Shown here one piece after another: positions 38,093 to 61,371 of a stretch of DNA of 64,000 nucleotides (positions are counted from its first letter, which is position 1; each line of letters starts with the position of its first letter). This stretch comes from Niabella sp. (GTDB lineage: Bacteria > Bacteroidota > Bacteroidia > Chitinophagales > Chitinophagaceae): assembly GCA_027493055.1 (NCBI GenBank), contig JAPUDO010000068.1, positions 144,683 through 208,682 on the forward strand, given 5' to 3'. A program made the translations under genes and the position numbers. The notes beneath the pieces are model-generated. The model was not told the DNA's origin. It did no database searches and worked only from the letters and a program-made list of their open reading frames with translations.

Positions 38093-40000
38093 TTACCAAT
38101 ATAAATTTTGCACAATAAGCGGGTTATTTAAGATAACCGATTCATGAAACGGCCAGAAATAATGCTTTTCAGTTATACTAGGTGAGAATAAGTTCGTTAA
38201 CTTGTAAAAGTCTAAAGCAGTGGTAGTGCCCCGGTAATTCCAGCCCTGATAAGGAAGCGAATTAGCAGCAACGTATTCCTTCCATCGTTTCAGGTCCCAT
38301 CCTACTTCGCCCTCAAAGCACAGCTCAATTCTTCGTTCCTGATGTATAATACTTCTCAGACCTTCTTTTGATAAAGGTTTTGATGCATTAGCCGAGTGTG
38401 CAGTCCACGACTGTACAACTCCCTTCAACCCGGCTCTTAACCGTACCGAATCAATGTACCTGTACACTTCGGGGCCAGGCCCTTCGGCTTCATTCAATGC
38501 TTCGGCATATAACAGCTGTAAATCTGCCAATCGTACAATGGGGGGATAATAAGCTACCTGGGTAAAAGAGCTGCCGGCAAAAGTAGTTCTGTAATTAACC
38601 AGTTTCTTAGGCCAGTACCCGGTATAGCTTGATACGAGGCCCGGATATCCTTTTGCATAGTTGAGGCCATTGGCATTGGCTGCGTTTTCTATTCCCATTC
38701 CATACCAAATGCCCCGGTCAAAAGCCAAATCGGCATAAAATCTTGGCTCCCTGTTAAAATGTAATTTTGCGGTAGGCCCGCTTGAGCTGATATAATACTT
38801 ATGATCGGCCCCGGCGGTCGCAGTTGTATACCTGCCTGCGTAATCAAAAGTCATGTCCTCATCAATAGGAACGCCGTTGCTGGTATAAAACAGTTCGGCA
38901 ATGTTTAATGGAACAGATACTACAGCATCGCCATCCACGCTACGTGTAGCACTTGACGAAGCCAATGAAGCAAAATACCGCTGACTCCGGCTTATTACAT
39001 TTCCAGGCCAGATCACTTCGGAAATAATAGAATTGACCGACCTGTCGAAATTAACCGGACCGTGGATAGACAGTAATTGTTTGATCGAATCGGGGATATA
39101 ATTGGTATTGTTTGAAGGCTTTTCATACTTATATAATACAGCGCCCTGCTCTTCGCAGAAGTCAAGCGCCTGGCGGCATGCCCGGGCTGCAGCGCTCCAT
39201 TTGGATGCATCGAAAGACTGGGGAAAAAGTTTCTGCCCGTCTTTATTAGCCAACTCTTTGAAAATTTCATCTCCGTTAAATAAAGGACTGGCCTGCAATA
39301 CAGCCGCCTTTGCCTTAAGGGTTGCCGCCATCACCTGCGTAAACCGGCCATACTCGGTTAAAACATCATATGCCATGGCAGGCAGTTCCGGAATGGCTTC
39401 ATCAATAAGAGTATTGATATAAGTAAATACCGAGTCGCTTGGCGCCCTTGGCAAACGTGCGTCTGCAGTCAAAGTATATATAGGCAGATTTTCTTTAACC
39501 AAAGGAACGGGTCCATATTTTCTTACCAACCAGTAATAATAAAAGGCTTTGAGGGTTTTTACCTCTGCAATCCACCGGCTCTTTTCACCCAGCTGTAAAT
39601 CGGGCGCAACGTTTACGTTTTCCAGGAAAGTATTACACCTCCTGATGGCTATGTAAATGTTCGCAAAATCGTTTTGAATATTGGTGTTGGCTGCAGTGCC
39701 ATAAGGCGACAGGTTACCGTATAACACCCAAAAGCCATTTACATTATACTCTGACCCAAAATTGGCGCCTGAGAGGTTATTTCGCATAATTAATTCTCCT
39801 GAGCTTGTCCAGCCCGGATTATTTTCCGGTGCTACCAAAGCCTGCATACGCTGATAACAGGAAAATAAGTAGTTTTCTGTTTCATTCCTGTTTCTGAATG
39901 CGTATTCAATCGTTGCCACATTATCAGGTACAATATCAAGGTATTTTTTACAAGATACTGCTGTAAAAATGAAGAAGCAGTAGACAAATATATTTTTCAT
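38093..40000 (-). CDS. SusD/RagB-family lipoprotein of the fucosidase locus
   Basis: 635 residues, long for the family. The lipobox FTAVSCKKYLD gives Cys17. The N-terminal SusD-like region (YAFRNRNETENYLFSCYQRM) and the C-terminal RagB region (LYAEALNEAEGPG, DSVRLRAGLKG, RRIELCFEGEVGWDLKRWKE) are clear. The extra length lies in the middle (about 300-480). It pairs with the STN-type SusC encoded 13 bases upstream, as the substrate-capturing lid of that transporter. Confidence 0.93.
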   Translation of the reverse strand: MKNIFVYCFFIFTAVSCKKYLDIVPDNVATIEYAFRNRNETENYLFSCYQRMQALVAPENNPGWTSSGELIMRNNLSGANFGSEYNVNGFWVLYGNLSPYGTAANTNIQNDFANIYIAIRRCNTFLENVNVAPDLQLGEKSRWIAEVKTLKAFYYYWLVRKYGPVPLVKENLPIYTLTADARLPRAPSDSVFTYINTLIDEAIPELPAMAYDVLTEYGRFTQVMAATLKAKAAVLQASPLFNGDEIFKELANKDGQKLFPQSFDASKWSAAARACRQALDFCEEQGAVLYKYEKPSNNTNYIPDSIKQLLSIHGPVNFDRSVNSIISEVIWPGNVISRSQRYFASLASSSATRSVDGDAVVSVPLNIAELFYTSNGVPIDEDMTFDYAGRYTTATAGADHKYYISSSGPTAKLHFNREPRFYADLAFDRGIWYGMGIENAANANGLNYAKGYPGLVSSYTGYWPKKLVNYRTTFAGSSFTQVAYYPPIVRLADLQLLYAEALNEAEGPGPEVYRYIDSVRLRAGLKGVVQSWTAHSANASKPLSKEGLRSIIHQERRIELCFEGEVGWDLKRWKEYVAANSLPYQGWNYRGTTTALDFYKLTNLFSPSITEKHYFWPFHESVILNNPLIVQNLYW

Positions 40001-45822: not shown

Positions 45823-47319
45823 TTACATGTGGGCTTTCTCCAGCTCTTTGGCATTGATCTTTCCAGGCTTTGTTTCTATTTTTATTACAAAAGGATCTTT
45901 GCTGGTAAAAGTTTCAGGTAAGGTAATATCAAAATATACGTTCTTGTCAAGATCGATACCTATATCTGTAAACTTCATTTTCAAAACTGCTTTATTGGCC
46001 AATAGTGAAGCGGCCGTTGGTACGTCCGTTGCGTTCCTGGGAATTTTAATTCTTACAAGATTGCTGACAGGGCGGTTAAACACCGTCAGGTATAAGGACT
46101 TTTCTTTTTTTGTATAGTACCCATAGCCCGTAGGCTCAAGCGGTGCATGTGTGGCGCCATATATTGCCTCGGCATTTAATTTTGTCCACGCTCCTATTTC
46201 TCTTGCCAGTTTGTCTTCACCTGTGTGCATTCTTCCGTTGCCATCAGGGCCGAAGTTTAAAACAAAATTACCGCCCATTGATACCGAATGCATCAGCATA
46301 TCAATTAAATCGTACGAAGTTTTTGTATAGAACTTTGACCAGTCCTTAATATATCCCCAGCCGTTTGGCGGAATGGTCATCACGCAATCCCAGTCGTTTC
46401 CGTTCAGCCATTCATACTGTGCGGGCAGCTTACGCTCCCAACCCTGCTCATAATCGCCTAATAAGTCTCCGTTCGAATCAAAATGCCGTTTTCCATGTTC
46501 ATCGTTTCTAAACCGGCTGCCAATGATGAGGCCCGGATGTGCGGCACGTAAATCTTTTTCGAGCTGATACGTCCACTCATAAGAGTCGATCCAGGCTTTA
46601 TCCCAGGTACCGTCGAACCAAAATCCTTTCATTTTTGGATAGTTGCCCAGCAATTCAAACAGCTGGTTCCGGGTGTACGTCAAAAACTTTTCATATGAAG
46701 CTTTCTGTGCATCGGTGTTCGGCGCGGCGCTTTGATAATCTTTATTATACCAGTCAATAATAGAAAAATATAAATACACATCAATTCCTTCTGCCGTGTA
46801 TGCATCCACCAGCTGTTTTATAACGTCTTTTTTATAAGGGGACTGTGCGATCGTATATTCGGAAAACTTACTGGGCCATAAGCAAAATCCATCGTGGTGC
46901 TTGGTAGTAATAATCATATAGCGCGCACCCATTTGCTTTGCCTGCTTCGCCCAGCGTTGAGCATCAAAATCTTTTGGATTAAATTGTTTATACAGGTTAT
47001 CATAGGTCTGCCGCCAGTTGGGCGGTGCCGATGCGCCCGACCACACCCTTATCCATTCCGATGCGGTAGGTGCTTTTACACCGTTCCACTCGCCGCCTGC
47101 AATAGCATATACGCCCCAGTGAATAAACTGGCCTAAACCATATTCGCGAAAACGCTGCATGGCAACATCGGTACGCTTACCTTCATGCAAAGGGCCGTAC
47201 TTTAGTTCAATCCGTTCTTTAGGTTTTTCTTTGGGGCCGCCCCAGCTTTGGGCATTTACGTTTAACAATGCACCATACAAAAAAAAGATCGCTGTAAGCC
47301 TTGTTATTTTATTTCTCAT
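45823..47319 (-). CDS. GH29 alpha-L-fucosidase (upstream of the sigma factor)
   Basis: 498 residues. The signal peptide ends NVNAQ at about residue 24. The family opening RFREYGLGQFIHWGVYAIAGG is followed by MIITTKHHDGFCLWPS and the nucleophile region KGFWFDGTWDK with Asp236. SRFRNDEHGKRHFDSNGD and GGNFVLNFGPDGNG complete the pattern. It is longer than the other two GH29 products in the island and has a different N-terminal stretch, so its linkage preference may differ. It lies 6 bases after the GH95-like gene and 142 bases before the sigma gene, which suggests it belongs to the SusCD/GH88/GH95 unit. Confidence 0.94.
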   Translation of the reverse strand: MRNKITRLTAIFFLYGALLNVNAQSWGGPKEKPKERIELKYGPLHEGKRTDVAMQRFREYGLGQFIHWGVYAIAGGEWNGVKAPTASEWIRVWSGASAPPNWRQTYDNLYKQFNPKDFDAQRWAKQAKQMGARYMIITTKHHDGFCLWPSKFSEYTIAQSPYKKDVIKQLVDAYTAEGIDVYLYFSIIDWYNKDYQSAAPNTDAQKASYEKFLTYTRNQLFELLGNYPKMKGFWFDGTWDKAWIDSYEWTYQLEKDLRAAHPGLIIGSRFRNDEHGKRHFDSNGDLLGDYEQGWERKLPAQYEWLNGNDWDCVMTIPPNGWGYIKDWSKFYTKTSYDLIDMLMHSVSMGGNFVLNFGPDGNGRMHTGEDKLAREIGAWTKLNAEAIYGATHAPLEPTGYGYYTKKEKSLYLTVFNRPVSNLVRIKIPRNATDVPTAASLLANKAVLKMKFTDIGIDLDKNVYFDITLPETFTSKDPFVIKIETKPGKINAKELEKAHM

Positions 47320-47325
47320 TAAGCT

Positions 47326-49488
47326 TTATTTTTTATGAAACTCAATAAAACCGCCTTTTTCCATTTTTACTTTATAAATACTGCCCTGCTGCTCCATAAC
47401 AAAACATTTTTTCTTTGTCAGGACTGCTGCCAATTCAATATTGGAATCAATTGCTAAAACACCGCCCTTTTCACTATACACTGTAACCCGTTTATTAATG
47501 CTGTTTTCGCGATACCCGGAAACTAAAAAAGCGCCATCGGTCCTGAAGTTGGTGAAAGATACATCTTTCCAATACGAAGGTATTGCGGGAAAAACTCTTG
47601 TAACACCATTCCAATGCTGTAAAGAAAGCTCCTGCAGGCTGCCGGCTGCCGATAGCGGTGTTTCTATCACCGGTCCCGATTCGGCATAAAGGCTGTTAGG
47701 CCTGATGTAACGCTTTAAAAGCTGTTTCAGGTATACTACAGCGGAATCGCCATTTTTCATCAGCGCAAAAATGGAAGCCGCCCCCGACAGGGAATACCCC
47801 TGCATTGCCCCTTTTTTACTATGCCAATAGGCCAGCGATTGCTGAATGAATGTTCTGTTTTCGGGCTGATCATAGTTGATGAGGCAGAAAGGGTAAATCA
47901 TTAGCAAGTGCGAATAGTGCCTGTGCGATACGCTGTAAGGCTGGTTAGACGAAATCATAAAACCATTTTCGTCCTTAGGGTAATCAATAAGATTTGTTTG
48001 AATATCTTTCCAGCGTTTTCGCTGTTGTTCGAAGTCCGGATCCGTGGCGGTCATTTCGAGCAACGTTTTTAATCCCCATTGCAAGCAGGAGAGATCATAG
48101 TTGGTATTAAAATCAAAAGAACCGGGGTATTCGGGCGAATGCGAACGGATACTAAATGCGTATCGTCCTTCAGTAGTCTTTTTTAAATAGTTGATAGCAA
48201 AATTAGTGCTGCGCGTTAACAGGTCAATTAAAGGGTTTTTTAACCGCTCGTCCATACTGTAACGGTAATGCTTATAGTAATAATACAGCATCCAGGTGAG
48301 GTTGCTTATTTCAACAGCTGCGGTTGTTGAAATATTACCGTTTGCACCAATGGGAATGGGTGATGCCAGATCGGGTGCTGCAGAGCGGCCAACGGCGATG
48401 CAATTTTCCCGCAAAGGCTCCGGAACATTTAAAGAGAGATTAGATCTGTTTTTATCCACCAGCCGGAGAAAAGATTCCGCCAGCGACAAACGATTGGCTG
48501 TATAGAAAAAATCATAAGTAAGCTGAATATTAAGATTTAACCAATAGGCTGGCCAGGGCGTTGAGGCCGTCCAGGGGCCCTGTAAATCAATAGCAGGCTT
48601 ATCGGCCCTGGTAGCACAGGCTATCTTATATAGCTGCATATCGTAAAATTGTTGCAACTCCGGATCGGGAATTTTATAAGATGATAAGGCCCGGTATTGG
48701 CTCCACCAGCTTCTGTGCTTTACAATTTCACCTGCCATGGCAGATGGCGAAAATGCCTTCACTGTATTAATAGCATCGCGTACATAATTACTGCCTGCTA
48801 TAGCATAGCTGATAGTCACAGCATATACTTCTTTACGTTCACCGCTGCTTATTAATTTGTAAGCGGTGCAGTAGCCGCCACCGGCAGTCATGGGCTGGTT
48901 AACAAATATAACCTCACCGGCTTTGCCCGGCACCGCAGCAGGATTAGGTTTATAAGAAGGGAACTGGCTGAGATAAAACCCCGCCCTTGGGCTTTGTGAA
49001 ATTTCAGGAACAAAACTAAAGTGAGATGTACCGGTAAAATTGGCCTTATCCATTTCAATGAGAATAATATTACGCTCAGATAGCGTTGTTGTGGTAATAT
49101 AACAGGTTCCTGCCGTGGTACGAATAGCAGCAGTGGCATTAGCATCACTTAACAACATTTTTCCCGATACCGACACAGGGGTATCAAAGTGAACCAAAAA
49201 ATGCCCGATGGGCAACCGCGCTTTTGTAAACAGTTTATTTTCGATATCTGCACGATGATCGTACACATCAGTGCGCCCAATATCAACCCGAACAACACTG
49301 TCAGACATTAAGTAGGTTGTGGTTCCCAACAGACCGTTTCCTGTTAATAAGCCGTTATAAATGGTTTTCCCTAACAGTTCCATGCGCCATTCATCTGTTG
49401 GCGATTGGGCATACAGTATCGAAACTACAAGCATACAGCATTGCAACAGTACTGCCTTTATTACATTATTGAAAACCGGATAGATCAT
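47326..49488 (-). CDS. GH95-like glycoside hydrolase with altered active site
   Basis: 720 residues. Signal peptide to about residue 28 (LLQCCMLVVSILYAQ), an N-terminal beta domain (about 30-255) and an (alpha/alpha)6 barrel. GH95 landmarks are recognisable: WPAYWLNLNIQ with the Asn pair 318/320, HSPEYPG with Glu453, and SHRHYSHLLMIYPF. The family's C-terminal DGN(F/W)G motif, which carries the catalytic Asp, reads VIETPLSAAGSLQEL here, with Glu609 where the Asp is expected. GH95 enzymes are inverting alpha-1,2-fucosidases or galactosidases; a changed base suggests different specificity or loss of activity. The downstream GH29 gene is 6 bases away. Confidence 0.78.
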   Translation of the reverse strand: MIYPVFNNVIKAVLLQCCMLVVSILYAQSPTDEWRMELLGKTIYNGLLTGNGLLGTTTYLMSDSVVRVDIGRTDVYDHRADIENKLFTKARLPIGHFLVHFDTPVSVSGKMLLSDANATAAIRTTAGTCYITTTTLSERNIILIEMDKANFTGTSHFSFVPEISQSPRAGFYLSQFPSYKPNPAAVPGKAGEVIFVNQPMTAGGGYCTAYKLISSGERKEVYAVTISYAIAGSNYVRDAINTVKAFSPSAMAGEIVKHRSWWSQYRALSSYKIPDPELQQFYDMQLYKIACATRADKPAIDLQGPWTASTPWPAYWLNLNIQLTYDFFYTANRLSLAESFLRLVDKNRSNLSLNVPEPLRENCIAVGRSAAPDLASPIPIGANGNISTTAAVEISNLTWMLYYYYKHYRYSMDERLKNPLIDLLTRSTNFAINYLKKTTEGRYAFSIRSHSPEYPGSFDFNTNYDLSCLQWGLKTLLEMTATDPDFEQQRKRWKDIQTNLIDYPKDENGFMISSNQPYSVSHRHYSHLLMIYPFCLINYDQPENRTFIQQSLAYWHSKKGAMQGYSLSGAASIFALMKNGDSAVVYLKQLLKRYIRPNSLYAESGPVIETPLSAAGSLQELSLQHWNGVTRVFPAIPSYWKDVSFTNFRTDGAFLVSGYRENSINKRVTVYSEKGGVLAIDSNIELAAVLTKKKCFVMEQQGSIYKVKMEKGGFIEFHKK

Positions 49489-49561: not shown

Positions 49562-50746
49562 TTATAAATACCAGTCTTTATAACGCTTTAACGCTTCGAG
49601 GTAATAGTAATCAGCATAAACCAATGGCACATCTATTTCTGAATTTAAAGGCAGGGCGCCGGTGCTGTGCTTTAATAAAAACCCCCCGTTTTCGCCAACC
49701 TTAGCTTTATATTTTTCGCCTGATAAAGACAGGATCATGTCCCGGGCATTATCAATATACGATTGCTTTTCCGCTCCGCTGGTGTATTGCGCCAGCTCTA
49801 ATAACGCTGAAGCAATCAAGGCCCCTGCAGAAGCGTCTCTTTTAGCATTAGGAATTTGCGGGGCATCAAAGTCCCAGTAAGGAATTTTATCTTCCGGCAA
49901 ATTGGGATGCTTTAAAATAAAAGAAGCTATTTTCCGCGCATGATCAAGATAGCGCCTGTCTTTTGAAAAACGGTACATCATGGTATAACCATATAAGCCC
50001 CAGCCCTGGCCGCGTGCCCAGGAAGAACAATCGGCCGCGCCCTGCCAGGTGGCTTTGCGCAGCACTTTTCCAGTTTTCAGGTCGTAATCAATAACATGAT
50101 AAGAGCTGTAATCGGGCCTGAAATGGTTTTTTAATGTGGTGTTGGAATGGGTGATGGCGATGTCCTTAAATCGCTTTTCTCCACCATTATTGGCCGACCA
50201 GTACAGTAATTCCAGATTCATCATATTATCAATAATAACCGGCCCTTTGAAATACTGGTTACTGTTCCAGGATTGAATAATTTTTGCATCTGGCCTGTAG
50301 CGTGTAGCCAGGGATGCAGCTGACTGGTGTATGATATCCCTGTATGATTGCTCTTTGGTAATGCGATAGGCATTGCCAAAGCTGCAATACATCATAAAGC
50401 CCAGGTCGTGATTGCCGGTGTAGGTTTTATTGGGCTCAATAATCGTTAACGCTCTTTCTGCTTCTTTTTTTATTGCAGGATCGCCGGTTTGTTCGTATAT
50501 ATACCAAAGCGAGCCGGGATAAAAACCGGTGCACCACCAGGTACGCTCATGAGCTATGAACTTACCGGTTTGCTCATTATAAGACTGTGGCATTTTATCC
50601 GGCGGGGTCAATGTCATCATGTACTTATACTGCGAGTTGGCAAAAGCAAAGTTTTCTTTGATCAATTGACTCATATCAGTCTTTTGCGAGAACAATGGCA
50701 ACGCACTCAACAGCACAATACTCAAAATTACCAGGAACTTATTCAT
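49562..50746 (-). CDS. GH88 unsaturated glucuronyl hydrolase
   Basis: 394 residues. The signal peptide ends LPLFSQ at about residue 21. The (alpha/alpha)6 catalytic domain carries the two aspartates of the family: Asp114 in GNHDLGFMM and Asp173 in VIIDNMMNL, spaced as in the Bacillus enzyme (Asp88 and Asp149, from memory). SSWARGQGWGLYGYTMMY is also diagnostic. GH88 hydrates and releases 4,5-unsaturated uronic acids left by polysaccharide lyases. No lyase is recognisable in the window unless the beta-helix protein at 55827 is one, so the source of unsaturated ends is open. It lies in the operon of the third SusC/SusD pair. Confidence 0.93.
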   Translation of the reverse strand: MNKFLVILSIVLLSALPLFSQKTDMSQLIKENFAFANSQYKYMMTLTPPDKMPQSYNEQTGKFIAHERTWWCTGFYPGSLWYIYEQTGDPAIKKEAERALTIIEPNKTYTGNHDLGFMMYCSFGNAYRITKEQSYRDIIHQSAASLATRYRPDAKIIQSWNSNQYFKGPVIIDNMMNLELLYWSANNGGEKRFKDIAITHSNTTLKNHFRPDYSSYHVIDYDLKTGKVLRKATWQGAADCSSWARGQGWGLYGYTMMYRFSKDRRYLDHARKIASFILKHPNLPEDKIPYWDFDAPQIPNAKRDASAGALIASALLELAQYTSGAEKQSYIDNARDMILSLSGEKYKAKVGENGGFLLKHSTGALPLNSEIDVPLVYADYYYLEALKRYKDWYL

Positions 50747-50833: not shown

Positions 50834-52441
50834 TTAATAGCCCTGGTTCTGAGCAAACGGTGCGCCGGTATTGGCATCAATAACCTCCTGCGGTATGGGC
50901 CACAACACCTGATGATCTTTAATAACGCCTTTTGACTGATCGTTCAAACTTCTCACTCTTTCTAAAAATTTGGCTGATCCAAAGCGGGACAATGTCATCC
51001 GGCGCATTTCTTCACCCAGCAGTTCGCGTGCCCGTTCGTCCAGCAGTATATCTGCCGTTACTGCAGCAAAAGGCGTTGCCTGCGCTCTTACTCTTACAGG
51101 ATTTAATGCCGTGGCAGCCATGCCGGCGTTATTTTTCTGAACATAGGCCTCTGCAAGCAACAGGTAAGTTTCTGCCAGGCGTGCTTTCACCCGGTCTTTC
51201 ATGTTTCCTTCAAAAGCAGGGTCTACAGCGGTTTTCCCATAGAAAAACTTCGTAGTTGTTTCAAAAACATTTCCCGACTCCCTGATGGCGTTTGTAAGCG
51301 CCAGCCGGGTACCATATAAAGGAGAAGAGGGGTTGTTATGATACCAGTCTCTTTTAATATTGTATTTCGAGTTACGCACATCATTAACCTCATAGCTGTC
51401 TAACCACCATTTGTACGGGCGTACCTGGCCTAATCCGCGGCCGCCAAGCGAATCTGCAAGTAAAAATCCGGTTTGCTGTGCATAAAACGGGACCCAGGCT
51501 CTCTTGCTCCAATCCGTATAACGATCGCCTCCGCCCAGGTTGTTAAATTCAAGCTGTATAGCCCAGATAGTTTCCCGGTTACCTGATTTCCGGTTTTGAT
51601 TATTTTCAATGAACATATCATGAAAATAATCTCCCGGCAAGTCTTTTTCCACACCAAAACGCTGATCATTCAGCTTAAAGTAAGGGGCATTAATAACCTG
51701 GTTGGCTGCCCAGATAGCGGAATCTGATTTCTGCACCATTAAATAGGCTTCTGCCAGATAATGGAGCGCAGCCCATTTCGTAAGCTTTCCATCAGCAACC
51801 TGGTCCGGGTTTTCAGGGAGGTTTTCAGAAGCCACTTTAAAGTCATTAATCATCATCTGTATCACGCTGGCTCTGGGATCTCTCACAAAGTCTGTACGGG
51901 GTGAAGCAGAAATTTTATCCACCCAGGGCACATCTCCGTAAAGCGTTACCAGGTACCGGTAAGCATACGCTCTGAAAAAAGATGCCGTCCCTCTTACAAT
52001 TTTAGGGTCCTCGCTGGGATTCGTCCATGAAATAGCAGGATTTTCCAAAGCGGTTAAAATCTGGTTGGAGTTGCCTATTAATCCATAAGCAAATCTCCAG
52101 TAATTTCTTATATAGCTTAAAGCAGGGTTAAGCGTATAATTGGTAAAAGGGGCCAGCGTACCATCGGTACCTGTTGTTTTTACCGCCACAATATCGGTAC
52201 CTGCCTGCAACGCTTCCTGCGGGGTAGCGCCATGCGAAAAAATACTGTTATTAAAGGTTTGAAATTCCAGCCGTGCAAAAGCGTATAAGCCTGTAAGTCC
52301 CGCATCAAAGCCTTTTGTATTCACAAAGGTATTACCCGGCGAAACAAAGCCGCTGGTGTCTTCATCAAGAAAACTTTTGCTGCATGAGGCTAACACAACG
52401 GCAGCAAACAGTACAAATTGTATTTTATATAAAATCTTCAT
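50834..52441 (-). CDS. SusD/RagB-family lipoprotein (third pair)
   Basis: 535 residues from the ATG at 52441, which gives MKILYKIQF and a lipobox VVLASCSKSFL; the longer start at 52465 would run into susC. SusD features include GTASFFRAYAYRYLVTLYGD, LAETYLLLAEAYVQKNN and RARELLGEEMRRMTLSRF. It starts 10 bases after the end of its susC and is followed by the GH88 gene. It should form the surface lid for uptake of the oligosaccharide handled by GH88, the GH95-like enzyme and GH29. Confidence 0.94.
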   Translation of the reverse strand: MKILYKIQFVLFAAVVLASCSKSFLDEDTSGFVSPGNTFVNTKGFDAGLTGLYAFARLEFQTFNNSIFSHGATPQEALQAGTDIVAVKTTGTDGTLAPFTNYTLNPALSYIRNYWRFAYGLIGNSNQILTALENPAISWTNPSEDPKIVRGTASFFRAYAYRYLVTLYGDVPWVDKISASPRTDFVRDPRASVIQMMINDFKVASENLPENPDQVADGKLTKWAALHYLAEAYLMVQKSDSAIWAANQVINAPYFKLNDQRFGVEKDLPGDYFHDMFIENNQNRKSGNRETIWAIQLEFNNLGGGDRYTDWSKRAWVPFYAQQTGFLLADSLGGRGLGQVRPYKWWLDSYEVNDVRNSKYNIKRDWYHNNPSSPLYGTRLALTNAIRESGNVFETTTKFFYGKTAVDPAFEGNMKDRVKARLAETYLLLAEAYVQKNNAGMAATALNPVRVRAQATPFAAVTADILLDERARELLGEEMRRMTLSRFGSAKFLERVRSLNDQSKGVIKDHQVLWPIPQEVIDANTGAPFAQNQGY

Positions 52442-52451
52442 GATCGTCATT

Positions 52452-55400
52452 TTAAAATTGAACATTTAATCCCAGGGAAAACATACGAGCTACCGGGTAG
52501 GGAGAAAGGACATTGGTTGTGGTAGGGTTGCCGGTAGCAGCGCTTACCGATTGTGCTTCTACATTATACCCTTTTACTTTGGAGAACGTGTAAAGGTTTC
52601 TTGCATTGATGAAAGCTTTAATAGAAGAAACACCTTTCATATTCCAGCGGTCAATCGGTAAATTATAAGCAAGCGAAAAATCGCGGATGCGCAGGTAAGA
52701 GGCATCCAGATAATAGGAGTGATTATTTACAGGTGTATAACCCGGAGAAACATATTCTGTGCTGGGATTTTCGGGTGTCCAATAGTGTATATCCGACAGG
52801 TAATTACCCCCGTTATTGGGCAGAAAACGCTCAATATTTGCAAAGTTATTTTCTTTAGTAACATCAAAAGCGCCGGTTAAAAAGAATGAAAGAGACCAGT
52901 CTTTATAGCTGAAATTATTGCCTAAACCTAAAGTATAAGCCGGAATTTTAGACCCGATCACTTTGCGGTCAGCAGCTGTAATCTGGCCGTTACCGTCTAC
53001 ATCTTCCAGCTTGGCATCGCCGGGCTTGGCATTGGGCTGCCAGGAGTTTTTTATATCATCACTTGCCTGCCATACACCAATAACATTGTAGTCATAAAAT
53101 ACGCGGATAGGCTGCCCTATCAGCCAGGCATTGGTCAGATCATCTTTTCCATCTCCCCTGAGCTCTACTATTTTATTTTTGTTATAGGCAAATGCCAGAT
53201 CGGTATTCCACGAAAAATGTTCCCTGCGGATATTTTCACTGTTTAGTGTAAGCTCTATACCCAGGTTCTGTGTTTTCCCTACATTATCCCAAACGGAGTT
53301 AAATCCATTCATTACCGGTACCTGGCGGTTCAGGAGGAGATCGTAGGTATTGGTTTTATAAACGTCAAGCGAGCCGCTGATGCGGTTGCGGATAATCCCA
53401 AAATCCAGCCCCACATTTAAAGAACGCGTGGTTTCCCATTTCAGTGTTTTGCTTCCTACACCTGTATAGCTCGTTATCAGCCCGTTTACAGGTGTGGCGC
53501 CATCGCCAAACAGGTACTGTATCTTGGTAAGCCTGTCAAATGTCTGGTAAGCCGAAACACCCTGGTTACCATTCTCTCCATAAGACAACCTTAACTTTAA
53601 CTGGTTGATTGTATTACTTTTGAAAAAATCTTCCTGGGATAATACCCAGGCCACAGCTACAGAAGGGAAAAAGGCCCATTTGTTATTTACCGAAAAAGCG
53701 CTGTAACCATCGGAGCGGCCGGTAAGCGTTAATAAATACCTGTTCTTAAATCCATAATTTATTCTTCCCATGTAAGAGATCAACGCGGTATTGGTGAGAT
53801 TGGATTCTATTTTTTGGTTCTTGGCAGCCGATGCCAGGTTGTTATAACCATTATCAGAAATAAAATCCTCTCCGTAGGCGGAAGAAGTCTTCAGGTTGGT
53901 TTTTTGTGCACTGTACAAACCCACTGCATTCAGCCTGTGATCGCCAAAGCTGCGGTCGTAAGTCAAAAGATTTTCCCAGGTCCAGTCAAAATAATCGGCG
54001 TTGTACACAGTTCCCTGGCCATTGGTGCTCATACCTGTAAATGTATTACTGCCATAGTAGGTACCGTTAAATTCATGCCTGTAATTAGTACCAAAAGAAG
54101 TTTTGAAACTAAGTCCCTGTATGGGGAGCTTTGCGTCCAAAAAGCCGCTGGCAAATACGGTCCTTCGTGTATTGTCATTTACGCCGTTTTCATCTGCAAA
54201 CGGATTCGGATAAAGTGTTTGCGCATACATGGGGTATAGCACCCGTTTTCCGTTTTCATCAAAATTCTTTCCATAGGGGCTTATTTTTACTGCATTATCT
54301 ATAGAAGGTTGTACGCCATTATTATTTCCCTGGGATAGTTGCGTAACTAATCCCGATTTTAACCAGCGGGTCAATGTCTGGTTCAGGTTAAACGACACAT
54401 TGTATCGCTCATAGGAAGTATTTTTTACAAGACCGTCCTGTTTCAAATAACCAACCCCTGCAAAATAATTCGACTTTTCGGTACCCCCCGAAAGATTCAA
54501 CTGGTGCTCTGTTATAAGTGCCGTGTTATTAAAAATCTCTTGCTGCCAGTCAATATGTTCTCCTTTTTTCCATTGTTCCAGCACATTTGCAAAAAGATAT
54601 TTTTCAGGATTAAGATCATCCCCGGTTTTCCCTTTTGATATCTGGTAATCCCTCAAATATTGAATATACTCTGGCCCGTTCATCAGGTTTAGCCTCCGCT
54701 CTACCATTTGAACACCTATATAACCGTTATAGCTTACTTTCGTCTTGCCTGCCTGTCCTTTTTTAGATGTAACAAGAATTACCCCGTTTGCCGCTCTTGA
54801 GCCATAAATAGCGGTGGCCGAGGCATCTTTTAATACGGAAATATTTTCAATGCTGCTGGTGTTGATATCGTTAAAAGACCCGTTAAACGGCACTCCATCC
54901 AGGATGATAAGAGGCTGGTTTGAGGCGGAGATGGAGTTTTCACCCCTTACGGTAAGAGAGGCTACTTCACCCGGCCTTGCATTTCCTGTGTTGATGCTTA
55001 AACCCGGAACCTTTCCCTGGATCTTATCAACAAGATTGGGTGCATTAATTCCCTCCATGTCGCGGGAGCTGATTGTATTTACACTTCCTGTAAGATCAGA
55101 TTTCTTCTGGGTACCATACCCCACTACTACCACCTCATCCATAGCGGCATTTTCCGTGGTCAAGGATACATTAACAATGTCCTGGTTATTTACCGGCACC
55201 TCAACCGTTTTATATCCTATAGAACGGAATGATACGGTAGCATTCCCACTTTTAAGTGTCAGCTGGTATTCTCCTTTTTCATTTGTAGCGGTGGCATTGT
55301 TGGTACCCACTTCCTCAACAGTTACACCGGCTACCGGTTGTTTTGAAACAGCATCGATGACAGTACCTTTAATAACTACATTTTGCTGCAGCATCAAACT

Positions 55401-55520
55401 ATTGGATGCTATAGCTTTGTTTGCAGCTATCAATAAAAAAAACAGCAGGAAAAGCCGGAGACCCTGCAAGTATTTTCTCCCGTTGTTCCCGGTTGATGAA
55501 TGTTGAAGGTTTACATACAT
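52452..55520 (-). CDS. SusC/RagA TonB-dependent transporter (third pair)
   Basis: 1022 residues from the ATG at 55520; the longer ORF start at 55586 would precede a normal signal region. The signal segment LRLFLLFFLLIAANKAIA is followed by a carboxypeptidase-like domain (GTVIDAVSKQPVAGVTV), a plug (GYGTQKKSDLTGSVNTISS, NISVLKDASATAIYGSRAANG) and a barrel ending LGLNVQF. There is no STN domain, so this transporter is not wired to the sigma/FecR pair further down. The hybrid two-component regulator encoded divergently at 58306 is the likelier controller. An AAAATTTTATCATTGATAAT element lies 168 bases upstream. Confidence 0.94.
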   Translation of the reverse strand: MYVNLQHSSTGNNGRKYLQGLRLFLLFFLLIAANKAIASNSLMLQQNVVIKGTVIDAVSKQPVAGVTVEEVGTNNATATNEKGEYQLTLKSGNATVSFRSIGYKTVEVPVNNQDIVNVSLTTENAAMDEVVVVGYGTQKKSDLTGSVNTISSRDMEGINAPNLVDKIQGKVPGLSINTGNARPGEVASLTVRGENSISASNQPLIILDGVPFNGSFNDINTSSIENISVLKDASATAIYGSRAANGVILVTSKKGQAGKTKVSYNGYIGVQMVERRLNLMNGPEYIQYLRDYQISKGKTGDDLNPEKYLFANVLEQWKKGEHIDWQQEIFNNTALITEHQLNLSGGTEKSNYFAGVGYLKQDGLVKNTSYERYNVSFNLNQTLTRWLKSGLVTQLSQGNNNGVQPSIDNAVKISPYGKNFDENGKRVLYPMYAQTLYPNPFADENGVNDNTRRTVFASGFLDAKLPIQGLSFKTSFGTNYRHEFNGTYYGSNTFTGMSTNGQGTVYNADYFDWTWENLLTYDRSFGDHRLNAVGLYSAQKTNLKTSSAYGEDFISDNGYNNLASAAKNQKIESNLTNTALISYMGRINYGFKNRYLLTLTGRSDGYSAFSVNNKWAFFPSVAVAWVLSQEDFFKSNTINQLKLRLSYGENGNQGVSAYQTFDRLTKIQYLFGDGATPVNGLITSYTGVGSKTLKWETTRSLNVGLDFGIIRNRISGSLDVYKTNTYDLLLNRQVPVMNGFNSVWDNVGKTQNLGIELTLNSENIRREHFSWNTDLAFAYNKNKIVELRGDGKDDLTNAWLIGQPIRVFYDYNVIGVWQASDDIKNSWQPNAKPGDAKLEDVDGNGQITAADRKVIGSKIPAYTLGLGNNFSYKDWSLSFFLTGAFDVTKENNFANIERFLPNNGGNYLSDIHYWTPENPSTEYVSPGYTPVNNHSYYLDASYLRIRDFSLAYNLPIDRWNMKGVSSIKAFINARNLYTFSKVKGYNVEAQSVSAATGNPTTTNVLSPYPVARMFSLGLNVQF

Positions 55521-55826
55521 AATTAGAATCGTTTGTTTTAATTGGTTTAAAAAGCTCAGCAAACCTGAATTTGAAAAATCAAGCACGTTTTTTCTTCACG
55601 GGTAAATTTGCCCCAGGATTTAACAAATGGCAGGGTGGTATTTTAAAAAAAACAGGGGGTTTTTATTCTGCTTAATATAAAACTCTGATTATCAATGATA
55701 AAATTTTGATCATTTTTTAATTTTGTTTAACTTTTTCTACGAACTTGGTTCAGGTTTTACGGTCTAATTGCATCAGCGCTGAATATTGGTCTTTATATAA
55801 ACCCGTTTAAATAACTTCATTTCTTT
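55521..55826. promoter_or_regulatory. Divergent control region between susC and the beta-helix gene
   Basis: A 306-base AT-rich gap without ORFs. On the minus strand, AAAATTTTATCATTGATAAT (55688-55707) nearly repeats a sequence upstream of the first susC, where 7 extra bases interrupt it (10255-10281). Overlapping it is a palindrome with arms AATGAT (55694-55699) and ATCATT (55709-55714). The position suits control of both divergent genes. No perfect TAnnTTTG element is seen. Confidence 0.5.
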
Positions 55827-58193
55827 ATGCCTGTACAAGTATTTATTAAGAAAATGCTGTATGCTTTCCTTATTGCGCTGTCTTTTCCCGCAGCCGGGCA
55901 GGTAAGCTTTTTTGTATCTCCCGATGGCAGCGACAGCAATAACGGTACACGCAGCAAGCCTTTTAAAACGCTTCGCTGTGCCATTGAAGCCGCCTCGGAA
56001 TTAAAAGAAAAAGATGTGACTATTGCACTGCGCAAGGGAATACATTATCTTGATCAAACTATCACAATAGAGGCATCCCGGTTTTTGCCTGCGTCTTTAC
56101 AGATCACGGCTTACGGCAATGAGGAAGCAACCATAAGCGCCGGTAAACCCTTGCAGCTGAAATGGAAACGCTGGAAGAACGGTATATATATGGCAGATGT
56201 TCCGGCAGGGCTTTCTTTTGAAAGAATGTATGTAAACGGTCAGCTGCAACCACTGGCACGCTATCCCAATTATGACTCCACAGCCAGGGTATTTCACGGA
56301 ACGGCAGCAGATGCTATTACACCGGAGCGCGTAAAAAGATGGAAGAACCCGGCAGGCGGCTATATTCACGCTCTTCATGCACATGAATGGGGCGGGTTTC
56401 ATTACCGGATAACCGGCGTTGACAGTGAAGGAAATTTGCAAATGGAAGGAGGCTGGCAGAATAACCGCCCCAGCAAAATGCACGAAAAATACCGCTTTGT
56501 AGAAAATATATTTGAAGAACTGGATGCTCCTGGCGAATGGTGGCTTGATAAAACAAAACACATTCTTTACTACTATCCACCACAAAGCATTGCTATTACA
56601 AAGGCAACCCTACAGGTGGCGCAATTCAAAAACACAATAGAACTGAAAGGCACCGAATCCCAGCCGCTCAGGCATATACAAATCAAAGGCCTCCGTTTTG
56701 CCCATAATGAAAGGAGCTTTATGGATACTAAAGAGCCTTTGCTGCGAAGCGATTGGACCATTTACCGGGGCGGCGCTGTTTTGCTGGAGGGTACTGAAAA
56801 TTGCAGGATAACCGACTGCGTGTTTGAAGGCATTGGCGGCAATGCTGTAATGCTGAGCAACTATAACAGGTATGATACCATTACCGGCTGCCATATTTAT
56901 AATACCGGCGCCAACGCGGTTTGTTTTATCGGGGATACAAAAGCAGTACGATCCCCATCGTTCAGCTATGGCGATTTTGTTCCGTATGACCAGCTGGATA
57001 AAACACCGGGGCCGCTTACTAATAATTTCCCTCAAAACTGTATCGTAACAAATAACCTTTTTCACGATCTGGGCGATATTGAAAAACAGGCAACCGGTGT
57101 GCAAATCCAGGTAGCCTCTGAAATTACAGTGAGCCACAACACCATATATCAAACATCAAGGGCGGGAATTAATATTGGCGATGGCTGTTTTGGGGGCCAT
57201 ATTATTGAGTTTAATGATGTGTTCAATACAGTGAGGGAAACAGGAGATCACGGCTCATTTAATTCGTGGGGGCGCGATCGTTTCTGGGCACCAGGCAGAA
57301 AGTATATGGACAGCCTTACAACTGTCCACCCGGAGCTGATCTTACTGGATGCCCAAAAGCAAACCATTATACGCAATAACCGGTTTCGCTGTGACCATGG
57401 CTGGGATATTGACCTGGATGACGGCTCTTCCAATTACCACATTTACAATAATCTCCTGCTGAACGGAGGCCTGAAGCTGCGGGAAGGATTTTATCGAACT
57501 GTTGAAAACAATATTATGATCAATAATTCCTTTCACCCGCATGTATGGTTTAAAAACAGCGGCGATGTTTTTGAGCGGAATATCGTAATGAAAAAATACG
57601 CGCCTATACAGGTAACGGACTGGGGCAGCAAAATAGATAATAACCTGTTCCCCGATACAGCAGCGTTGCACGATGCCCGGTTAAGAGGGACAGACCGGCA
57701 CAGCATTGCGGGTGACCCTATGTTTGTAAATCCTGCAAAAGGAGATTATACGGTAGCACCGGCTTCACCGGCATTGAAAACAGGATTTAAAAATTTCCCT
57801 ATGGATCAGTTTGGCGTACAAAAATCAGCGCTGAAAAAAATAGCGAAGCAGCCAGCCATACCCGTGCTTATTTCCGATGCCGGGCTGGCAGACAAATCTG
57901 TATCTGTTGTTTTTTTAGGGGGTACTATAAAATCGGTGGATGGATTAGGAGACCGGTCGGCCTACGGGTTGCCCGATGAAACCGGGGTTGTTATTTTGTC
58001 TGCAGGCAATGGCAGCTTACTTATACAATCCGGGGTTCAGGACAGAGATGTTATTCGCAGCGCCAATGGTAAGTCTGTAAGGAATATAAAAGAATTAATG
58101 GATGTTTACCAGGCATTTAACTGGACGGGACGCCTGCCCGTTACAATTATCAGAAATCAGCAGGTATTAAGCCTTGAGCTGAAAACAAAATAA
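55827..58193 (+). CDS. Secreted parallel beta-helix protein with C-terminal PDZ-like domain
   Basis: 788 residues. The signal peptide ends FPAAGQ at about residue 25. It opens with the beta-helix leader FFVSPDGSDSNNGTRSKPFK and continues with right-handed helix repeats (GAVLLEGTENCRITDCVFEG, HNTIYQTSRAGINIGDG). A strongly conserved-looking GDHGSFNSWGRDRFW block near residue 475 suggests an active site. Residues about 690-788 look like a PDZ domain (GVVILSAGNGSLLIQSGVQD, RDVIRSANGKSV). The architecture recalls the GH141 group (fucosidase or xylanase) but a lyase is not excluded. It is divergent from the susC/GH88/GH95/GH29 unit and adjacent to the regulator gene. Confidence 0.75.
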   Translation: MPVQVFIKKMLYAFLIALSFPAAGQVSFFVSPDGSDSNNGTRSKPFKTLRCAIEAASELKEKDVTIALRKGIHYLDQTITIEASRFLPASLQITAYGNEEATISAGKPLQLKWKRWKNGIYMADVPAGLSFERMYVNGQLQPLARYPNYDSTARVFHGTAADAITPERVKRWKNPAGGYIHALHAHEWGGFHYRITGVDSEGNLQMEGGWQNNRPSKMHEKYRFVENIFEELDAPGEWWLDKTKHILYYYPPQSIAITKATLQVAQFKNTIELKGTESQPLRHIQIKGLRFAHNERSFMDTKEPLLRSDWTIYRGGAVLLEGTENCRITDCVFEGIGGNAVMLSNYNRYDTITGCHIYNTGANAVCFIGDTKAVRSPSFSYGDFVPYDQLDKTPGPLTNNFPQNCIVTNNLFHDLGDIEKQATGVQIQVASEITVSHNTIYQTSRAGINIGDGCFGGHIIEFNDVFNTVRETGDHGSFNSWGRDRFWAPGRKYMDSLTTVHPELILLDAQKQTIIRNNRFRCDHGWDIDLDDGSSNYHIYNNLLLNGGLKLREGFYRTVENNIMINNSFHPHVWFKNSGDVFERNIVMKKYAPIQVTDWGSKIDNNLFPDTAALHDARLRGTDRHSIAGDPMFVNPAKGDYTVAPASPALKTGFKNFPMDQFGVQKSALKKIAKQPAIPVLISDAGLADKSVSVVFLGGTIKSVDGLGDRSAYGLPDETGVVILSAGNGSLLIQSGVQDRDVIRSANGKSVRNIKELMDVYQAFNWTGRLPVTIIRNQQVLSLELKTK

Positions 58194-58305: not shown

Positions 58306-61300
58306 ATGAGCTATAAAACCAACAAGATTTTACCGGCAGCCCTACTTGTATGCTGCTTAATAATAGCTGTTCATCCTGTAAACAGTCAGAAGCTTTCATT
58401 TAATAGCTGGAACACGGAAGCAGGTCTTTCCCGAAACAGGGTTTATGCTATTACACAGGATAAAAAAGGTTTTATGTGGATAGGGGCAGGAGAGGCTTTG
58501 AACCGGTTTGATGGAAAAGAGTTCAGAACTTTTACGCCAAAATCGAAAAACAGTATCAATGCGCCGGAAAATGATATTAACTGTCTTCTTACAGACCAAA
58601 GCAATTGTATATGGATCGGTACCACTGTTGACCTGCTGGCCTATGACATTAAAAATAACCAGTTTAAGGGCGCCAGGTTTGAAGGGAATCAGGAGCCGGT
58701 ATATGTTCGCTGCCTGTTTGAAGATGCGCGATCAAATATCTGGGCCGGTACCAGCTCGGGTATTTATCGCCTGAAAAACAGAGAAAACCTCATTTTTGAA
58801 AAAACAGGCACCTATGATAATACAGGCCTCCGTCCTGGTATCCATAGCCAGATAATAAGAAGTATATTCTGTGATAATGACAATACGCTCTGGGCGGGTA
58901 CAAATGCAGGCCTTGTAAAAATAAGGTTTACACAAACAGATACAACCTATACCCATTTTAAGCACGACCCGCAAAACCCAGCCAGCATCAGCAGCAATAC
59001 GGTTAGCTCCATTACTGCTGACAAGTACAATAATTTATGGGTGGGAACCCAAAGCCAGGGCATCAACCTGCTTGATAAAGCTACAGGAACTTTTACCCGT
59101 ATTCATACCGGTTCTCCCAAATTATCTTTACTCAATAATTTTGTACGGGTAATAAAGCCGGACACCACAGGTAATATCTGGGTGGGCACACAGGAGGGGC
59201 TAACGCAAATAAACTGGCGGCAGCAAACAGCTGTCAGCTACCGGAACGACCCTCTAAACAAACATAGTCTCAGCCAGAACTCCGTGCACAGCCTTTTTAC
59301 TGATCAAAACAACCTGGTATGGGTAGGCACTTTTTTTGGCGGCATCAACCTCATCAACCCTTTTCCTTCCGAATTTCAAACCTGGCAAAATAACGGCTTA
59401 TCATCAGGCTTAAGCAATAACGTGGTTAGCTCCATTACATCGGATCTTAAAGGAAATTTATGGATCGGAACGGAGGGCGGAGGTGTTAATTATTATAATA
59501 AGCCAACTAAAAACTTTACGTATTATAAGCAGGGCCCCCAAAGTGTAGGCTCCAATCTTATCAAAACCATTTTGAAGGACAGAGACGGTAACATTTGGGT
59601 AGGAACCCACGCCGGAGGCCTGAACCTGTATAACAAGGGAACCTTCAAAAAATATTTCTATACCCCGGAGAATCCCGCGTTTCTGACGTCGGAGATATTC
59701 ACTATTGCAGAAGACCAGACCGGCAACCTGTGGATAGGCACACAGGGAGGTATAAAGGACGTAAGTATATACAAAAGAGAAGGCACCCACGAGATCAGGA
59801 CACACCTTACATTGATCATGGCTCCTGTTGATAAAATGATTACTGACAGGGCTAATGATAATTACCTCCAGCAGCAGTTTCAAAATATTAAAAAGAATGC
59901 CAACAACCTGCTTCGCCTTTCAGAAGAGCTGATGGATTTCAGGAAGGCGGAAACGGAGCACATGAAACTGCAAATAGCTCCTTATGACATTGTGGCGTTT
60001 GTAAAGGAGATCTATGAGCATTTTACTGAAATTTCCCTGGCACGGGAAATGCATATCTCGTTTACCCACGATACGCAGGAACAAATAGTGTATTTTGACA
60101 AAGAGCAGTTGGAAAAAGTATTTTTTAACCTTATCAGTAATGCCTTTAAGTTTACACCGGACGGGGGCAGGATACAGGTACATATTACAGAAGAAGGCCC
60201 GTATATTAAAGTAACCGTTACAGATAGCGGGCGTGGTATTGCGCCGGAGTATAAGGATAAGCTCTTCAATAATTTTTTCCAGGTGAATGATTCCGGCTCT
60301 CAGAACAAAGGTTATGGTATTGGCCTCGCACTGTCAAGCAAAATAGCCGCCCTGCACGGGGCAAGGATAGAGGTAGACAGCGCTTTGGCAGCAGAAAGTA
60401 CAGAAGAAAGAACAACCACATTTGCCGTTTTTCTTCAGAAAGGCTTTGAGCATTTTAACCAGCCCATCAGTACACCGGAGCCACAGGTAAGTGTGGATGA
60501 AAGTGAAGCGCTGGTTCCATCACCACAAAAAGAGCCGGCAGAGGAACCCCGGGTCCTGGAAAGCTATATAGGAAGTAAACAGCTTTCTATATTAGTGGTA
60601 GATGATAATCCTGGTATCCGTAATACTATTTTTGAAATACTGACGGATAAGTATACTGTGGTATTAAAGGAAGATGTAGCCACAGGCTGGTTACATGCCA
60701 GCGAACAATTGCCGGATATTATCATAAGCGATGTGATGATGCCGCACGAAGATGGACTGAGTTTCTGCAATCGCATCAAATCAGATATGCGCACCTGCCA
60801 TATCCCGGTAATTTTATTAACGGCAAAAACCACGCAGCAGGATCATATTGAAGGACTGGATAAAGGAGCCGACCTGTACCTTACCAAACCTTTTAACCGG
60901 AAAATATTAGAGCTTAATGTAAGAAACCTGCTGGCCACACGCGAAAGGGTTCACGAAAAAGTGCAGCAATACATTCAGCAGGGGTTGCTGGTTTCGGCAC
61001 CGGAAGAGGAGGGCGACAGACCCAAAATTGTAAACCCGCTGGATAATACGTTTTTGAAAGAAGTGCTGCATATTATAGAGGAGCACTTAGATGAGCCGGA
61101 ATTCAACGTAGCATTGCTGGCACAGAAGGTGGCCATGAGCATTCCGGTGCTTTATAAAAAAATGAAAGCGGTTACCAGTCTTTCTGTAAATGATTTTATC
61201 AAATCAGTTAAACTGCAGAAAGCGGCGGAGATGTTGCAACAAAATAACCTGGCAGTGTACGAGGTTTGCTACGCCGTAGGCTTCCAGGACAGGAAGCACT

Positions 61301-61371
61301 TCAGTATGGAGTTTAAAAAGAAATACGGTCTCACACCAAAGCAGTATGCACTTTCGCACAAAAAAGACTGA
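58306..61371 (+). CDS. Hybrid two-component regulator with internal deletion
   Basis: 1021 residues, about 300-400 shorter than typical HTCS proteins. Signal peptide (1-27), then about ten propeller blades marked by W(I/V/A)G motifs (residues 50-480). The tenth blade (LWIGTQGGIKD) runs within ten residues into the kinase motif THEIRTHLTLIM with phosphoacceptor His495. The remaining blades, the Y_Y_Y domain, the transmembrane helix and the linker coil are missing. Downstream parts look intact: HATPase (N-box about 608-612), receiver with Asp809 in ISDVMMP, and AraC-type HTH (about 915-1015). HTCS proteins sense glycan fragments in the periplasm and activate nearby loci. As encoded, sensor and kinase cannot sit on opposite sides of the membrane. 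Confidence 0.88.
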   Translation: MSYKTNKILPAALLVCCLIIAVHPVNSQKLSFNSWNTEAGLSRNRVYAITQDKKGFMWIGAGEALNRFDGKEFRTFTPKSKNSINAPENDINCLLTDQSNCIWIGTTVDLLAYDIKNNQFKGARFEGNQEPVYVRCLFEDARSNIWAGTSSGIYRLKNRENLIFEKTGTYDNTGLRPGIHSQIIRSIFCDNDNTLWAGTNAGLVKIRFTQTDTTYTHFKHDPQNPASISSNTVSSITADKYNNLWVGTQSQGINLLDKATGTFTRIHTGSPKLSLLNNFVRVIKPDTTGNIWVGTQEGLTQINWRQQTAVSYRNDPLNKHSLSQNSVHSLFTDQNNLVWVGTFFGGINLINPFPSEFQTWQNNGLSSGLSNNVVSSITSDLKGNLWIGTEGGGVNYYNKPTKNFTYYKQGPQSVGSNLIKTILKDRDGNIWVGTHAGGLNLYNKGTFKKYFYTPENPAFLTSEIFTIAEDQTGNLWIGTQGGIKDVSIYKREGTHEIRTHLTLIMAPVDKMITDRANDNYLQQQFQNIKKNANNLLRLSEELMDFRKAETEHMKLQIAPYDIVAFVKEIYEHFTEISLAREMHISFTHDTQEQIVYFDKEQLEKVFFNLISNAFKFTPDGGRIQVHITEEGPYIKVTVTDSGRGIAPEYKDKLFNNFFQVNDSGSQNKGYGIGLALSSKIAALHGARIEVDSALAAESTEERTTTFAVFLQKGFEHFNQPISTPEPQVSVDESEALVPSPQKEPAEEPRVLESYIGSKQLSILVVDDNPGIRNTIFEILTDKYTVVLKEDVATGWLHASEQLPDIIISDVMMPHEDGLSFCNRIKSDMRTCHIPVILLTAKTTQQDHIEGLDKGADLYLTKPFNRKILELNVRNLLATRERVHEKVQQYIQQGLLVSAPEEEGDRPKIVNPLDNTFLKEVLHIIEEHLDEPEFNVALLAQKVAMSIPVLYKKMKAVTSLSVNDFIKSVKLQKAAEMLQQNNLAVYEVCYAVGFQDRKHFSMEFKKKYGLTPKQYALSHKKD

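Follow-up and report, generated by a model that had tools for sequence, protein, structure and literature searches.

Probable inactivation of a propeller-type HTCS regulator by an in-frame deletion in Niabella sp.

The HTCS regulator gene at positions 58306–61371 (+ strand) of a 64,000-nucleotide stretch of Niabella sp. DNA, hereafter the window, belongs to a well-known regulator family and has most likely been inactivated recently. Its open frame, its domains, and its alignment to a 1373-residue orthologue (L114:7624-11745, in genome G016 of the same genus) mark it as an internally deleted gene of 1021 codons. It appears to have begun as a standard HTCS gene of the propeller type in a sugar-utilisation locus and to have been shortened by a single in-frame deletion of about 1,029 bp. 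What is left is probably a loss-of-function allele, derived and probably recent. The gene would be a clear example of the loss of a sugar-sensing regulator through one clean in-frame deletion. Since all cytoplasmic domains are present, automatic annotation would probably go on naming it a working HTCS.

The frame begins with ATG and has no internal stop; all of its parts lie on the + strand. The signal peptide (residues 1–27, 58306–58386) is a hydrophobic helix with a Kyte–Doolittle value of 2.2 over residues 8–26, helical at 8–21 in the predicted model and, as judged by eye, cleaved after VNS. It is followed by a first beta-propeller of seven blades (residues 32–350, 58399–59355), modelled with pLDDT mostly >90 and matching the folds 4a2l/4a2m, and by the remnant of a second, consisting of blades 8–10 (residues 374–486, 59425–59763) with blade motifs at 385, 430, and 475 and lower pLDDT. 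Overall, the model (49 rows, mean pLDDT 83.1, pTM 0.45) contains one confident seven-blade propeller and three leftover blades at lower confidence. Ten W-x-G blade motifs span residues 57–475, compared with 14 in the G016 orthologue. In both sequence and fold, the sensor part is matched best by the solved BT4663, BT3049, and BT4673 sensors (PDB 4a2l/4a2m, 3v9f, and 3ott/3va6), with the BT4663 match reaching chain residue 472 in the window protein and 787 in the G016 protein.

On the other side of the junction, the motifs for kinase, receiver, and DNA binding are all intact. Pfam places a HATPase_c domain at residues 598–711 (60097–60438), a Response_reg receiver with the motifs VVDDN, ISDVMMP, LLTAK, and TKPF at 762–869 (60589–60912), and an AraC-type DNA-binding domain (HTH_18) at 938–1014 (61117–61347). 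Together with Reg_prop, these make up the Pfam matches of the protein, in which receiver and AraC-type domain lie in one chain. An earlier sequence-only reading, which took the frame to be intact through these three domains, is borne out.

The same reading had noted that the tenth blade is followed by the H-box within ten residues, and the spacer between LWIGTQGGIKD and the H-box is indeed eight residues long (VSIYKREG). The deletion junction falls between Gly493 and Thr494 (59784/59785), as placed by the orthologue alignment and a comparison of breakpoints, and the H-box THEIRTHL (59785–59808), with the phospho-acceptor His495, begins at residue 494, the first nine HisKA positions being missing. 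The window fragment matches HisKA positions 10–65 of 66 at 24.1 bits, under the cut-off of 26.9, with His495 and HATPase present, while the G016 match covers positions 2–65 at 25.9 bits and is likewise under the cut-off; the later start in the window fragment indicates that the deletion also took the beginning of the dimerisation helix. In the predicted model, residues 488–494 have pLDDT <50 and the dimerisation helix begins at 496, just after His495. Pfam detects no Y_Y_Y domain in the window protein at E <= 0.001, compared with a match of 65.7 bits in the G016 orthologue. Neither does a membrane helix follow the signal helix: the best hydrophobic 19-mer scores 1.08 on the Kyte–Doolittle scale versus 2.46 for the membrane helix of G016.

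All of these absences fall within a single gap. The G016 orthologue aligns end to end with the window protein except for 343 codons (1,029 bp), a segment that runs from blades 11–14 and Y_Y_Y through the membrane helix (KD 2.46) and the coil into the first part of the dimerisation helix. The in-frame loss of about four blades, Y_Y_Y, membrane helix, and coil, which the sequence-only reading had put forward, is thus what the alignment to a full-length orthologue displays, and both the position of the gene in the family tree and the failure to find the joined form in any other genome searched agree with it. Orthologues L031 (N. ginsengisoli) and L115 (genome G005) also keep about 1 kb at the deletion site, in frames that are broken in places. 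Both (L031:5986-10057 and L115:7567-11633) are split over several frames, and sequencing error in those assemblies seems likely.

The shortened gene could in principle be an artefact, the strain carrying the full gene and the assembler having dropped about 1 kb. The sequence does come from a single draft assembly, in 131 contigs. Collapse would require a repeat, however, and the longest word common to the two breakpoints (±60 bp) is six bases in both G016 and L031, compared with random-pair means of 6.8 and 7.1; within the window gene, the longest exact repeat is 15 bases. The frame is also kept exactly, and the assembly does not carry the missing piece elsewhere: a search of it with 341 of the 343 missing codons returned a best match of 51%, which lies in a paralogue whose frame has 1341 residues. 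Because relatives lack a breakpoint repeat and the missing piece is found on no other contig, an assembly collapse is unlikely.

The direction of change follows from the tree and from searches for other short forms. A tree built from 17 kinase halves places the window gene with those of G016 and G005 at 95/92, and with L031 added at 100/100; the remaining rows are long-form genes. The window gene is thus nested among long-form propeller-type HTCS members, which indicates descent from that family. A 240-residue protein query spanning the junction was run against 294 genomes of the family, 59 related genomes, and 395 genomes of the phylum, samples that overlap and all include the window's own genome, at E thresholds of 1e-45, 1e-28, and 1e-28 and with 9, up to 47, and 7 candidates scored in each genome, respectively, such that distant short forms may be missed. 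Among the 33 match rows from the 59 relatives, 25 kinase halves start at query residue 112–114, that is, at the junction, and 2 start later; five sensor halves end at or before the junction region, leaving the window's own as the sole row that runs through it. The 294- and 395-genome sets gave fewer matches, and at these thresholds the joined form was found in no other genome of the three sets. Nesting among long forms, combined with this result, marks the deletion as derived, with one genome known so far to carry it.

Linker length sets the window gene apart in the same way. In a survey of 105 frames, some of which are one gene present in two loci, the distance from the last blade tryptophan to the H-box is 19 residues in the window gene, against a median of 245 and a next smallest value of 41. 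Six other frames have a blade-like motif 41–107 residues from the H-box, and each retains a hydrophobic segment (1.97–2.65). Over the 110 residues before the H-box, 18 frames besides the window gene fall below a hydropathy of 1.6: seventeen are at 1.17–1.57, and L106, with a linker of 383 residues, is at −0.14. Low hydropathy alone is therefore not unique to the window gene, while the short linker is.

These surveys also bear on whether the gene represents a true, selected class of soluble or one-compartment HTCS, the other option that the sequence-only reading had entertained. Such a class could draw on the open frame and the conserved motifs only, and the joined form occurs neither in another genome of the 294/59/395 sets nor in another frame of the 105-frame survey; moreover, the second propeller is a three-blade remnant and the signal peptide is kept. 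With no second genome carrying the junction and the dimerisation helix cut too, that option went unsupported and is extremely improbable, and the search for other HTCS with the same short linker came back empty for both the 105 frames and the thresholded genome sets. Judged by titles, the literature likewise yielded none on an HTCS without a membrane helix.

In HTCS relatives, a second membrane helix holds the kinase in the cytoplasm. With the signal helix alone remaining, the domains downstream of it should be exported. The signal helix would start Sec export, which in the absence of a later stop would carry the kinase, receiver, and DNA-binding domains out of the cytoplasm and out of reach of ATP and DNA. 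In any molecules that stayed inside, the second propeller would consist of three blades and the dimerisation helix would be truncated right up to the phospho-acceptor histidine, so that signalling should fail. The suggestion that a retained signal peptide without an anchor would put the C-terminal part on the wrong side thus fits the kept signal helix and the lack of a later membrane helix.

Inactivated sensing had been expected to leave a regulator either mislocalised or constitutive. Mislocalisation agrees with a signal helix that has no anchor, but constitutive activity is little supported because an inhibitory receiver/DNA-binding motif is intact. PMC11253607 links an S/CHIP-DK motif in HTCS to inhibition of the DNA-binding domain without phosphorylation. 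The window protein carries CHIP…D…K at residues 831–834, 913, and 952, spaced as in BT4124, and a kinase-dead protein with this motif should accordingly be off rather than constitutive. The motif, in the spacing of BT4124 and with the role that PMC11253607 assigns to it, also counts against a sensor-less regulator that, through poor export or a later start, would be active in the cytoplasm and locked on or off, so that the deletion would be a gain-of-function or a repressor allele. In favour of such an allele, the kinase, receiver, and DNA-binding domains are complete except for the first turns of the dimerisation helix, and protein evolution is not accelerated; the intact signal helix and the missing N-terminal part of the dimerisation helix point the other way, making it decidedly unlikely. 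If the protein proved active after all, it would test the need of HTCS for a membrane anchor and a dimerisation helix.

Outside the deletion, the gene shows no sign of decay. Five of 58 conserved columns deviate in the window protein, compared with 4, 5, and 5 in three orthologues and a median of 2 (maximum 15) over 90 rows. When L031 serves as third row, the window gene has a protein-changing branch of 0.076 versus 0.125 and 0.082 versus 0.094, i.e., not longer than those of the orthologues, and its end branch in the tree is 0.16, the orthologues having 0.12, 0.088, and 0.26. When L115 replaces L031 as third row, the window branch (0.136) exceeds that of L114 (0.066), which a sister relationship between L114 and L115 would lead one to expect. 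The lack of decay beyond the deletion fits a recent loss, but it also fits a gene still under selection, and synonymous sites, saturated in most comparisons, do not discriminate between these possibilities. That selection in the lineage has kept a natural sensor-less HTCS, which escapes export and fixes the state of the sugar-utilisation locus from the cytoplasm, is very improbable.

Under the preferred reading of a recent loss of function, the likely result is that the neighbouring SusC/SusD and glycoside hydrolase genes would no longer be induced, unless another regulator covers them. A SusC/RagA transporter gene (52452–55586, − strand; NCBIfam TIGR04056, above cut-off) adjoins the regulator, and the gene directly upstream (55827–58193, + strand) encodes a beta-helix protein for which Pfam gives two weak matches, one GH141-like and one to PDZ. 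Near the regulator also lie SusD (50834–52465), GH88-like (49562–50746), GH95 (47326–49488), and GH29 (45823–47319) genes. In relatives, a SusC-like gene, by eye, adjoins the regulator as well and is divergently oriented. Window positions 38093–58193 as a whole form a sugar-utilisation locus in which two SusC/SusD pairs, recognised by eye, are joined by genes for an ECF sigma factor and an anti-sigma factor of FecR type, and by the GH29, GH95, and GH88-like genes. Its enzyme families suggest that the substrate may be a fucose-containing plant glycan. Elsewhere in the same genome lies a second damaged HTCS (L015, G000:C15:108957-110640), with kinase and receiver pieces in different frames, an internal TAA, and a short sensor-end piece.

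Among known systems, HTCS of the BT1754 type have a periplasmic-binding-protein sensor, as described in PMC3243724. The window's genome encodes an HTCS of this kind, L008 (G000:C48:70083-74615), in a 933-residue frame with a normal membrane segment and, by eye, a periplasmic-binding-protein sensor. Proteins of this type are shorter and have no double propeller; L008 differs from the window protein in its sensor fold, as judged by eye, and keeps the hydrophobic membrane segment before the kinase. The full-length orthologues of the genus (G016/L114, N. ginsengisoli L031, and G005/L115) have 71–75% identity to the window protein over the kinase half and about 1.03 kb extra between blade 10 and the H-box. 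Compared with the propeller-type HTCS of Bacteroidota, whose sensor comprises two seven-blade propellers, the window protein has one full propeller and three blades, ten blades rather than 14, and is devoid of Y_Y_Y, membrane helix, and coil, its dimerisation helix also lacking the start. With BT4663, BT3049, and BT4673 of that group, it nevertheless has in common the signal peptide, Reg_prop blades, HATPase, receiver, and AraC domain.
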